Shown here piece after piece: positions 27,027 to 31,587 of a DNA stretch of 64,000 bases. Below the pieces are notes generated by a model. That model was not told the origin of the DNA. It ran no database searches and worked only from the letters and a program-made list of their open reading frames with translations. The stretch's first letter is position 1; every line of letters begins with the position of its first letter. The translations under genes were made by a program, and so were the position numbers. Source of the DNA: Candidatus Altimarinota bacterium (GTDB lineage: Bacteria > Patescibacteriota > Gracilibacteria > BD1-5 > UBA6164); NCBI GenBank assembly GCA_013350285.1, contig JAAXWG010000001.1, positions 186,001-250,000 of the forward strand. The letters run 5' to 3'.

Positions 27027-27054
27027 AAAACTGTCTTTAAAAGACAGTTTTTTT
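27025..27054 (+). terminator. terminator of rsmH-ftsL-like operon
   Basis: The stem AAAAAACTGTCTT (27025-27037) pairs with the following AAGACAGTTTTTT over a 3-nt loop and continues into T. It overlaps the last base pairs of the upstream stop codon. Confidence 0.88.
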
Positions 27055-27176
27055 GTGCTTGAAATTTTGAATTTTCAAAGTCATAAAAATATAAGAGAGA
27101 TTAAAATATTTCAAATAAAAATCTTTTGAAGAATTATAGATTTTTTTAAATTATCAGTACTAATTAAAAATTCTAT

Positions 27177-27995
27177 TTATGAAATTCACTTATTCTTATT
27201 AATTTCACTAACTTTTTTATTAATTCTTTCTTCTTTTTTACTAAAAACTTTTTCTAAAATAGATTCTAAAATTTCATAAACTTCTAATAATTCTTCTTTA
27301 TGTAATTTACAACTAGAATGACTTCAATCGTTTCATATCCATTTAATTGCGAGTAATCTTTCAGATTGTTCCTCATTATTTTCTTTGTAACGATTTATTC
27401 TGTCCCCCAAAGATAACCTATAATTCTCTCCTTTTTTATTTTTACTTTCCTTTGGAATTCATTCATAATCCATAATCAATTCAATAATAATTCTCATTTT
27501 ATTTGCACAAGAATGCTCATCAATCCAAAATAATTCAAATGATTTTATGAGATTTTCCACGATTTCACATTTAGGTCAACAAGCTCGATCTTTATATAAA
27601 TCATAAATTTCTATTGGTATAGTTATGATAAATGGAGCCGGAAAAATATACTTTATTTTATAATAGTTTTCATTTATATAATTTATTCAATTTTTAAACC
27701 TTTCTTCTCAATCTTCTGAATCAAAAGAAGGTTTGTAATTTCTTTCTGGAAACTTTTCTCAGCTTATTACTGCATTTTCTCAACAATCACGATTTTGGCA
27801 GTTTGCAATTAAAATGAACTTCATTAAAAATTCATCAAATTCCCAAGAAGAATTATCCCTCAAATTTTGATTTAATCAAGATTCCTTTTCAATAATATCA
27901 CTTTTTAAAAACTCCAATCTTCAAGTATTACAATGAGGACAAGCAAAATAAGGAATTTCCTTATATTTATCTATGAAAATATTTTTTTGAACCAT
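27177..27995 (-). CDS. DUF4145-like zinc-finger protein
   Basis: The protein is 272 aa. The N-terminus has FACPHCN and later the Cys pair CQNRDC, a likely zinc site. The C-terminal region (about residues 165-265) matches the DUF4145 pattern: an all-helical unit with MRIIIELIMDY, LGDRINRYKEN and LAIKWIGNDGSHSSCK, where two glycines are UGA. DUF4145 occurs in restriction and defence-linked nucleases, but the function is unknown. Its start lies inside the 3' end of the 929-aa gene (23-bp overlap), so they are co-translated or at least co-transcribed. Confidence 0.78.
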
Positions 27996-30760
27996 GAATT
28001 ATTATTTAGATAGTAATTGGCTGTATAACGAATATCTTTATCATTTATATCGGATTTGTTAATTATCCGATCAAGATAATCTTTAGGAATATTTTTCCAC
28101 AACTCTCATTTATGTTTTCAAAAAGTACATTTATACAAAAGCATTGGATTTTTTGTAATAGAAAGCATCTTTTCTATTATTTCATCATCAGTTTTTATAT
28201 TTTCCCTATTTTTTAATTCTTTAAATAACTTTTCAAATAATTTTTCAAGTACATAAATATCACTCAAAGCATCGTGAGGATTTATCTCAAAATCAAATTT
28301 TAAATCAAGTTCATATCTCAAAGTTTGTAATTTATGATTTTCTATTTGGGGAAACAAATACCTTGCAACTCTTAGTGTACAGATATATTTTTCTGGTTTT
28401 ATATTATATGCTCTCAAAACTCCACTATCAAACTCAACATTATGTGCAACTAAAACTCAATCATCTAACAAAGATTGTAATTTTTTCCTATCATTATCTG
28501 ACTCTTCAAAAGTCTTTTTTCATTCAAGCATTTCTTCAGTTATATGATGGACTCATTTAGCTGATGAACTTATAGGAACTCATCAAGTTGAATAAAAATT
28601 ATTAAAATATTTTCAATTTATATTATTCTTATAAGCTAATTGTATCAAAATAGGATTTTCTAAATCATGGGTTTCCGTATCCAAAATAATAAGCTTCAAT
28701 GCTCATTGAATAACCTCATCTTCTTTCTCAATTATGTCAGCAATTATATTACTCTCAGTAATAGTTTCTGCATCATTTTCTCACATATTTTTCCCATCAT
28801 CAACTCTTTTTCAATTTTCATAAACATAATTTTTATCTTTTGCATAATTTCCATAAATAACTTTAAAAGTTTCTATATCTACTCATATTATTTTTTCACC
28901 ATTGTAATAAACAGAATTCTCATCTTTTAAGTAAGGGCTAGATTTTGATTCAAGATTAGAATTATTAATTTCTTCGAAAGTTTGTTCCTCTGATCATTCT
29001 ACCTTTTCTCATTCGGCTCTATCTTTTTCAGAAGAAGTTTTTATTGACTCCTTATAAGAAAAATCTTTATCCTTAAATTTTTTATATCATTTGGTCATAC
29101 TATTAATCCAATCTTTATTTAACTCCCTTTTTTGTTTATCTGTATATTTATTAGCTTCACGAAGATACTTACTAATTTTATTTAATAAATTATTATAATC
29201 ATTTAATTTATTAATAGCTCATTCTTTTACTTCAGGAGAAAGACTTTCTCTTGCTTTATTTCAATATTGTATTTGAGCTCCTATCTGTCGGTATTTTAGC
29301 CTTAAAGAATTTTCATAATCGTTACCTTTGTAATAAGCTCTTCGTTTTTTTTCATAAGCAATCCTCCTAGTTATTTTAGGATACATATCTTCAATTTTAT
29401 ACTTTGCATACTTAAAAATAAAAAATAAATATGGCCCCACTATCTCACCTTTATAATAAACATTGTTTTTATCTTTTGCATACTCACTATCAATAATTTC
29501 AAAAGTGCCTGAATCAGCACATTCTATCTTTTCTCAATCAAAATAAACATTGTTTTTATCTTTTGCATACTCACTATCAATAATTTCAAAAGTGCCTGAA
29601 TCAGCACATTCTATCTTTTCTCAATCAAAATAAACATTGTTTTTATCTTTTGCATACTCACTATCAATAATTTCAAAAGTGCCTGAATCAGCACATTCTA
29701 TCTTTTCTCAATCAAAATAAACATTGTTTTTATCTTTTGCATATTCACTGTTAATAATTTCAAAAGTTTCTAAATCTACTCATTCTATCTTTTCTCATTT
29801 ATAATAAACATTGTTTTTATCTTTTGCATATTCGCTGTTAATAATTTCAAAAGTTTCTAAATCTACTCATTCTATCTTTTCTCATTTATAATAAACATTG
29901 TTTTTATCTTTTGCATATTCGCTGTTAATAATTTCAAAAGTTTCTAAATCTACTCATTCTATCTTTTCCCACCCTTGAAACCTATCATTTTCATCCTTTA
30001 AGTAATAAATATTAGAAATATCTCTTGAATAAAAATCATTAATAATCTCAAAAGTTTCTGGAAAAGAATCATTAATAGGAAAAGAATAATAACCTGAAGA
30101 ATTTAAGTATATTTTAGAATATAAGTATATTTTTTTTCAACCATAATAAACAGAACTTCTATCTTTTGCATAATCTTTATTAATAATTTCAAAAGTTGCT
30201 AGATCTGCTCACATTATCTTTTCTCATCTATAATAAACATAATTTGTATCTTTATTGCAGTAGAAATTTAAGTTTTCATAATTATCAATACTAAAATCTT
30301 GTGGAGATACTCATTCCATTCTCCGCCAGTGATAATAAATGAAATATTTATCTTTTGAGTAATCTTTATTTAGTACTTGAAAAGTATCATTATTGACCAC
30401 TATTTCAGATGCCCTAAAAAATATTTTTCCATAACTTCTACTGAAATCTTTCTCTATAAATTCAAAAGTCTCGGGATCTGCTCATTCTATTTTAGAATTG
30501 GAGTAATAAACATTATTTTTATCTTTGGTAAATAAATCATTGATAATCTCAAATGAATCAATATCAATTCATTCTAACTTTTTATTATTGTATGTAATAT
30601 AATCTTTATGCCTATAATATCAGTTTCATAAATCCTTTTCTTGCTTTTCTAAAAACAATTTATTCTCTTCATATTCCTTAGTTTTTATTATCTCTCAGCA
30701 ATGTTTGCATTTTATTGCTTCATCCTGAATTTCTTCAGCACAATAGGGACATTTTTTCAT
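27971..30760 (-). CDS. Zn-ribbon / DKNYY-repeat / DEDDh exonuclease / DUF3820 fusion
   Basis: One unbroken frame of 929 aa in table 25. Residues 4-21 form a zinc ribbon (CPYC and CKHC). About residues 50-443 are DKNYY-family repeats, with cores like AKDKNNVYF, including 29-residue units that repeat almost exactly. Residues about 447-600 are helical and charged, followed by a further DKNYY pair (613-656). Residues 690-845 are a DnaQ-type exonuclease: DTETHD at 694, AHNVEFD at 773-778 and PHDALSD at 829. The end (877-925, [17 protein letters not shown]) matches DUF3820. It may be a nuclease tethered by repeats. I know of no characterised protein like it. Confidence 0.88.
29461..29982 (-). repeat. 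six 87-bp tandem repeats inside the DKNYY region
   Basis: Units begin at 29461, 29548, 29635, 29722, 29809 and 29896 (forward strand), each 87 bp or 29 codons. The first three are identical base for base. The next two differ by one base, and the sixth matches them for its first 70 or so bases. The two classes differ at about a dozen sites, which points to recent duplication or conversion within each class. Confidence 0.95.
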
Positions 30761-30841
30761 AGTATTGAATTTACTTTTAAAATACAAATATTATTATTAT
30801 ATGTATTTCAAAAAATAAAAAACTTTTTTAATTTTTTTTCT

Positions 30842-30924
30842 TACCCAGAGCGGGAATCGAACCCGAACTCCCGTGAAGAAATGGGTTTTTGAGACCCACA
30901 TGCTACCAATTCCATCATCTGGAA
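30842..30924 (-). tRNA. tRNA-Leu (CAA)
   Basis: An 83-nt type II tRNA with a variable arm. The anticodon stem is TGGGT/ACCCA with loop CTCAAAA, so the anticodon is CAA for UUG. D-arm GGAATTGGTAG and T-loop TTCGATT are present. The 3' acceptor strand is TCTGGGT with discriminator A; CCA is not encoded. The 5' acceptor strand is TTCCAGA, so pair 1-72 is T:T and pair 2-71 is T:G. The first 12 bases match an internal piece of the neighbouring denV gene. Confidence 0.85.
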
Positions 30925-31071
30925 AATAATTATTGTAAAATTCTCAGGATAATCCCTACACATCTTTTCAATAATACTTGTAAAAATTTGGTTTATATTT
31001 TTCTTTTAGTCTTGCTTTACTTATCTCTATCGCCTCATCATCTGGAAAATAATTATTGTAAAATTCTCAGG
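30913..31071 (-). repeat. 36-bp direct repeat shared by denV and tRNA-Leu 5' end
   Basis: Positions 30913-30948 and 31036-31071 are identical over 36 bases, 123 bp apart, and similarity continues a few bases beyond. The right copy encodes the [10 protein letters not shown] stretch of the DenV-like protein. The left copy covers the region after the denV stop and the 5' strand of the tRNA. Confidence 0.93.
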
Positions 31072-31342
31072 CTAATCACAAAAAATTCTCTCAATAATTT
31101 TGTACCTTAAATCCTCTTTTGAGGCATTCATCATAAAGCTCTGAGTACCTCAGCCTTAAAAACTCCATTTTATCATAAAAAAATTTAACATGCCCACTTC
31201 AAAGTGTGTACTTTTTTGGTTGTCATACAAAATTATATTTTCATTGTTTTATAAGATTAGGAATTCTTTTTATTTCCCTATGTTCTGCCAATAAATGCTG
31301 ATCATACAATTCTTTCACTGGAACCAAATTTACTCTTGTCAT
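30956..31342 (-). CDS. denV: T4 endonuclease V-like pyrimidine-dimer DNA glycosylase
   Basis: The 128-aa protein aligns along its full length with phage T4 Den[21 protein letters not shown], then [31 protein letters not shown] and the C-terminal YKYYGK. Thr2 (the N-terminal nucleophile after Met removal), Arg22, Glu23 and Arg26, all key in T4, are present. It cuts the glycosidic bond of UV-induced pyrimidine dimers and nicks the strand. Glycines in UGA show that it has adapted to this code. It is divergent from recR, which also concerns repair. Confidence 0.95.
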
Positions 31343-31587
31343 TTTTTTGTATTAATTTTTATGCTTGTCCACAATATACCTGATACAAATTGGTTTTCCG
31401 TTAACTCCATTTCTCCCTTGGGGATTGGGGGATGTTTTAGGAAAAACAAATTAGCTTAGGTATAATATGAAAATGTACAAAAAGTGCAATGGAATGAATT
31501 ATTTAATAAAAATTTTCTCGCTTCCCTTGCCTCATCATCAAAAATCAATATACTTATGCAATATTTTCTTTTTTTAAAAAACTTTTT
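31343..31587. promoter_or_regulatory. divergent region of denV and recR
   Basis: No gene is seen. TATAAT at 31461-31466 on the plus strand could be the -10 of recR, with a leader of about 115 bases; its -35 is poor. A G-rich stretch, TTGGGGATTGGGGG, lies near 31416-31430, unusual in this AT-rich window. Confidence 0.4.

Follow-up and report, generated by a model that had tools for sequence, protein, structure and literature searches.

In a genome from the Gracilibacteria, a little-known group of tiny bacteria, we found a 929-amino-acid protein that joins a long array of DKNYY repeats, beta-repeats that in other bacteria are normally exported to the cell surface, to an exonuclease that resembles exonuclease X (ExoX). 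The fusion is genuine and out of the ordinary: its parts are known, and the combination stands alone. We propose that it is probably a lineage-specific fusion, encoded on an accessory island, that produced a tethered cytosolic 3'-5' DNA exonuclease. The window that we analyzed is a stretch of 64,000 nucleotides from a Candidatus Altimarinota bacterium (assembly GCA_013350285.1, contig JAAXWG010000001.1, positions 186,001 to 250,000 of the forward strand). Coordinates are given within this window unless a locus is named.

The fusion protein and its exonuclease

The fusion gene lies on the minus strand (27971..30760). Its frame is open, from 30760 to 27971, when translated with table 25, in which TGA encodes glycine; this code was reported for Gracilibacteria/BD1-5 (PMC4032931). 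The gene contains 34 in-frame TGA codons, which make up 34 of its 49 glycine codons, and under table 11 the frame is broken. From the N terminus to the C terminus, the protein comprises a zinc ribbon, the DKNYY array, a basic helical stretch, two more DKNYY units, and an ExoX-type exonuclease with a DUF3820-type tail. The first-pass annotation of this DNA, which was made without database searches, had proposed that a zinc ribbon, DKNYY repeats, a DEDDh exonuclease, and DUF3820 are combined in one protein of this length, and the open table-25 frame and the matches to Pfam and NCBIfam bear this out. The agreement with this description is far beyond chance.

The zinc ribbon (residues 1-26, CPYC...CKHC; 30683..30760, minus strand) matches Zn_ribbon_3 from Pfam with E = 4.4e-6, slightly below the curated cut-off. 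This head is also present on small open reading frames (ORFs) in relatives. The basic helical stretch (residues 442-590; 28991..29437, minus strand) belongs to no known family; it has a pI of 9.7 and is modeled with low confidence.

The DEDDh 3'-5' exonuclease domain (residues 689-855; 28196..28696, minus strand) was identified by Pfam, NCBIfam, alignment, and a fold match. It is similar to RNase_T from Pfam (E = 1.3e-14), and residues 674-921 match a PHROG family of DNA polymerase exonuclease subunits (E = 5.6e-41). The expectation that all of the catalytic residues of a DnaQ-type nuclease would be present was correct: D694, E696, D778, H829, and D834 are invariant among 12 aligned sequences. 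The tail (residues 856-925, with GKHKG...YLDR; 27974..28195, minus strand) follows directly. In the alignment of 12 sequences, its GK..G residues are invariant and its YL residues are nearly so, and R898 of the fusion protein takes the place of a near-invariant tryptophan.

Pfam makes no call for the tail at E ≤ 1. We assigned it to DUF3820/ExoX from the alignment of stand-alone relatives, from a plasmid relative that is annotated as “DUF3820 family protein,” and from the NCBIfam profile PRK07983 (exodeoxyribonuclease X), which spans residues 690-920 (E = 5.4e-26; profile positions 2-219 of 220). Also, when an AlphaFold2 model of the full-length fusion protein was compared to solved structures, the top fold matches were two structures of ExoX from Escherichia coli (4fzx and 4fzy; E ~1e-9, TM 0.81-0.82 on the target). 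The first-pass annotation had named an exonuclease domain that lacks a fold match as one outcome that would count against it, and this is not what we see.

Given the full-length ExoX profile, the invariant residues, and the top fold match, the exonuclease and the tail together constitute a single, known type of enzyme, exonuclease X. They had been viewed as two joined partners, but PRK07983 covers both of them, and in relatives an exonuclease with this tail is a protein of its own. Plasmid and phage copies of the ExoX part are annotated as exoX or as DUF3820 family proteins. The fusion protein shares the DEDDh residues, the fold, and the C-terminal tail with E. coli ExoX, and residues 690-920 align to nearly the whole length of that enzyme. 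However, E. coli ExoX is a stand-alone protein of 220 amino acids, while the ExoX part here is the C-terminal quarter of a 929-amino-acid protein that scores 91.1 bits against PRK07983 and does not reach the equivalog cut-off of 202 bits. We therefore call the protein ExoX-type and do not file it as an equivalog.

The DKNYY array and the distribution of the fusion

The DKNYY array (residues 43-441; 29438..30634, minus strand) is predicted to form a chain of short beta strands with a period of 29 amino acids, and it is acidic (pI 4.5). The protein matches PF13644 in 6 stretches (E = 7.5e-84; 279.9 bits, as compared to a cut-off of 25). In the AlphaFold2 model, the pLDDT of the array is mostly 75-97, with a dip around residues 216-230. 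The two further DKNYY units lie at about residues 605-655 (28796..28948, minus strand). At the DNA level, the array contains 5.9 tandem copies of an 87-bp unit (29455..29968, minus strand). Three of these units are identical, which implies that the array was recently amplified.

Searchable papers assign no function to DKNYY repeats. Foldseek found no match between the array and solved structures at E < 0.001. With VIA-align 2, no solved structure reached Z ≥ 5 and there were only scattered beta-blade pieces, and a sequence-profile search for a solved fold gave nothing convincing. These results do not imply a new fold. We also considered DNA mimicry by the acidic array. Other DKNYY arrays, most of which are exported, are acidic as well (a median of -4.4 charges per 100 amino acids), so we set this aside as a specific idea.

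Across the class, DKNYY is present in 72 of 353 genomes. Among the class's array ORFs (those with at least 2 DKNYY units), 70 of 79 carry a hydrophobic segment for export or anchoring, as judged by a simple hydropathy rule. The fusion protein has neither a hydrophobic N terminus nor another export signal, and it is the only one of the array ORFs of the class that we read to carry an exonuclease. DKNYY is also found in 22 of 80 genomes of Fusobacteriales (G353-G432), many of which have 20-60 matches each, with a maximum of about 60. We read about 55 of the DKNYY ORFs from Fusobacteriales: they are mostly exported, they are up to ~1100 amino acids long, and by profile none has an exonuclease. 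Thus, the fusion protein has the same 29-amino-acid repeat as the rest of PF13644, but the DKNYY proteins elsewhere are mostly exported or anchored, and those we read lack an exonuclease. This agrees with the earlier suggestion that the joining of DKNYY to a nuclease is unusual, at least among the ~79 proteins from the class and the ~55 from Fusobacteriales.

The closest parallels that we found are two proteins from the same bacterial family, in G068 and G045 (L043:4321-5940 and L044:3642-5096). As in the fusion protein, the DKNYY array lacks an export signal and is joined to a nuclease-like domain. In these proteins, however, the nuclease-like domain is an HNH-like head (with weak HNH scores) at the N terminus, before the array, and belongs to another class of nuclease than the fusion's exonuclease.

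DKNYY proteins occur in other settings as well. G071, another genome of this family, encodes many of them (at L032, L033, L035, L038, and other loci); several have a stretch that resembles S-layer homology domains before the array, and others are lipoproteins. On a plasmid from Rhodobacteraceae (L164; CP081164.1), a DKNYY protein is encoded within a few genes of DUF4123 and PAAR, both of which commonly mark type VI secretion loci.

Within the order (77 genomes searched), the ExoX-type domains that we read, in 12 genomes, are stand-alone ORFs of 236-293 amino acids. These stand-alone relatives retain all of the DEDDh residues, and the closest, from G001 and G002, show 50% identity. In a phylogenetic tree, the exonuclease domain of the fusion groups with these two (support 91/93). 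The order's DKNYY proteins are encoded by separate genes, apart from the ExoX-type genes. The first-pass annotation had put forward a novel architecture, to be given up if close relatives had the domains in separate genes; since the ExoX and DKNYY parts are separate genes in relatives, we do not adopt that view. Viral contigs contained no relative of the whole fusion protein, and phage records were queried with the ExoX part only. Among the 20 plasmid records listed, each matched either ExoX or DKNYY, and the two were never joined. Within the genomes searched, the fusion is seen in one species only.

The accessory island and the DUF4145 gene

In six relatives, rsmH, ftsL, and recR adjoin each other, and the gap from ftsL to recR is less than 140 bp. 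The window has 4.5 kb between these two genes. Because ftsL and recR are adjacent in the six relatives, we consider the 4.5 kb insert (27027..31587) to be an accessory island. Its contents are all on the minus strand: a DUF4145 gene, the fusion gene, a second copy of tRNA-Leu(CAA), and a pyrimidine-dimer DNA glycosylase. We looked for the ends of a mobile element and found no target-site duplication at the borders of the island. The ftsL-recR junction thus clearly illustrates how a genome that reads a stop codon as an amino acid can carry such an island.

The glycosylase (PF03013; 30956..31342, minus strand) has a patchy distribution in the order, with 10 of 76 genomes encoding it. The tRNA copy (30841..30925, minus strand) is degenerate and has no CCA end; a copy of tRNA-Leu(CAA) that has the CCA is present elsewhere in the genome (L245:1439-1525). 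The 5' end of the degenerate copy merges into a 63-nt duplicate of the glycosylase's coding sequence, with 87% identity (30841-30975 and 31036-31098).

The DUF4145 gene (27177..27995, minus strand) overlaps the fusion gene by 25 nucleotides (27971-27995). It encodes a member of the HEPN superfamily with a zinc-ribbon-like part (CPHC) at its N terminus, and the match to PF13643 is clear (E = 4.4e-14; 52.7 bits, as compared to a cut-off of 23.1). DUF4145 is a HEPN family, with ties to restriction and to abortive infection (PMC3710099). Nevertheless, the Rx4-6H active-site motif of HEPN proteins is absent: nowhere in the DUF4145 protein is an R followed by an H at that spacing. We found no relatives of this protein in 75 other genomes of the order, and on the three plasmids that we read, the DUF4145 relatives were loners without an adjoining exonuclease. 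So the protein has its family membership in common with other DUF4145/HEPN proteins, but it lacks the catalytic motif, and there is no conserved pairing with an exonuclease. Of the earlier proposal that the two overlapping genes form a system, the overlap stands, and the system is not supported by the genomes and plasmids that we covered.

Proposed function of the fusion protein and alternative explanations

The explanation that we consider probable starts from what the analysis showed: the frame is open, no catalytic residue is missing, the model has the fold of ExoX, the array is predicted with confidence for the most part, and the gene sits on an island. An ExoX-type DEDDh 3'-5' DNA exonuclease, with its normal tail, would have been joined to the C terminus of a zinc ribbon and a DKNYY array. 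As it has no export signal, the fusion protein should remain in the cytosol, where, by analogy to E. coli ExoX, it would trim the 3' ends of single- and double-stranded DNA. The acidic array, which seems to have grown recently by whole 87-bp units, is a putative protein-binding or tethering arm, and it may bring the nuclease to a partner or a location. Binding of nucleic acids may be aided by the zinc ribbon and by the basic helical stretch.

As to the cellular process, our most economical guess is a role in DNA repair or DNA turnover. This guess is based on the pyrimidine-dimer glycosylase that the island also encodes, which is an association with one neighbor only, and on the roles of E. coli ExoX in mismatch repair, UV repair, and the stability of tandem repeats (PMC3753628). 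The presence of the fusion in a single species, the missed equivalog cut-off, and the replacement of the tail's tryptophan by arginine count against the explanation as a whole.

Alternatively, the array could be a passenger that was gained by recombination, and the protein could simply be this genome's ExoX. With the queries that we used, it is the genome's sole ExoX-type match and its sole DKNYY match. Its restriction to one species, the instability of the array's DNA, and the rearrangement scars next to it, where a tRNA copy is welded to a duplicated piece of a gene, would also fit. But all 929 codons form one unbroken frame, the model gives the array a confident fold, and the three freshly copied units preserve the protein repeat, so we think that a chance fusion is unlikely. 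The protein is almost certainly not an artefact in which the assembly joined two genes. Although identical tandem units of 87 bp are error-prone spots for assemblies, the collapse of repeats alters their copy number and would not create the link. Furthermore, the junction between the array and the exonuclease lies in unique sequence (28696-28796), two DKNYY units are on the exonuclease's side of the helical stretch, and the window lies within a 356-kb contig of an 8-contig genome that is 98% complete.

It has also been suggested that the protein has an immune or toxin function. What speaks for this is its residence in an accessory island, and we do not adopt it. A more specific version is a module for defense or against mobile elements, in which the array would recognize invaders or signals of damage and then switch on the exonuclease, with the DUF4145/HEPN protein as an RNase partner or a regulator. 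The gene overlap, the insertion into an otherwise conserved junction, and the association of this HEPN family with restriction and abortive infection are consistent with such a module. So are the two relatives with an HNH-like head, which suggest that the fusion of nucleases to DKNYY recurs. But the DUF4145 protein's missing motif, its lack of relatives in the order, and the absence of an exonuclease beside it on the plasmids argue against a partnership; PADLOC's matches cover the exonuclease domain only; and ExoX is a distributive nuclease of a house-keeping type (PMC3753628). We saw neither a conserved gene pair nor a match to a whole defense protein, either of which would mark the pair as a known anti-phage system. 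A defense module therefore seems quite unlikely. We give little credence to a broader speculation, in which Gracilibacteria have repeatedly put DKNYY arrays, which are normally exported, to use within the cell, as arms by which various nucleases (ExoX in the fusion protein, HNH-like ones in two relatives) recognize a target or are tethered. On small islands, these would form a modular toolkit against mobile elements, with the length of the arrays tuned by tandem duplication.

The fusion protein offers a first handle on the function of DKNYY repeats: here, an array shares one polypeptide with an enzyme whose type of activity is known. Whatever the array's partner is, it must make sense beside a 3'-5' DNA exonuclease.
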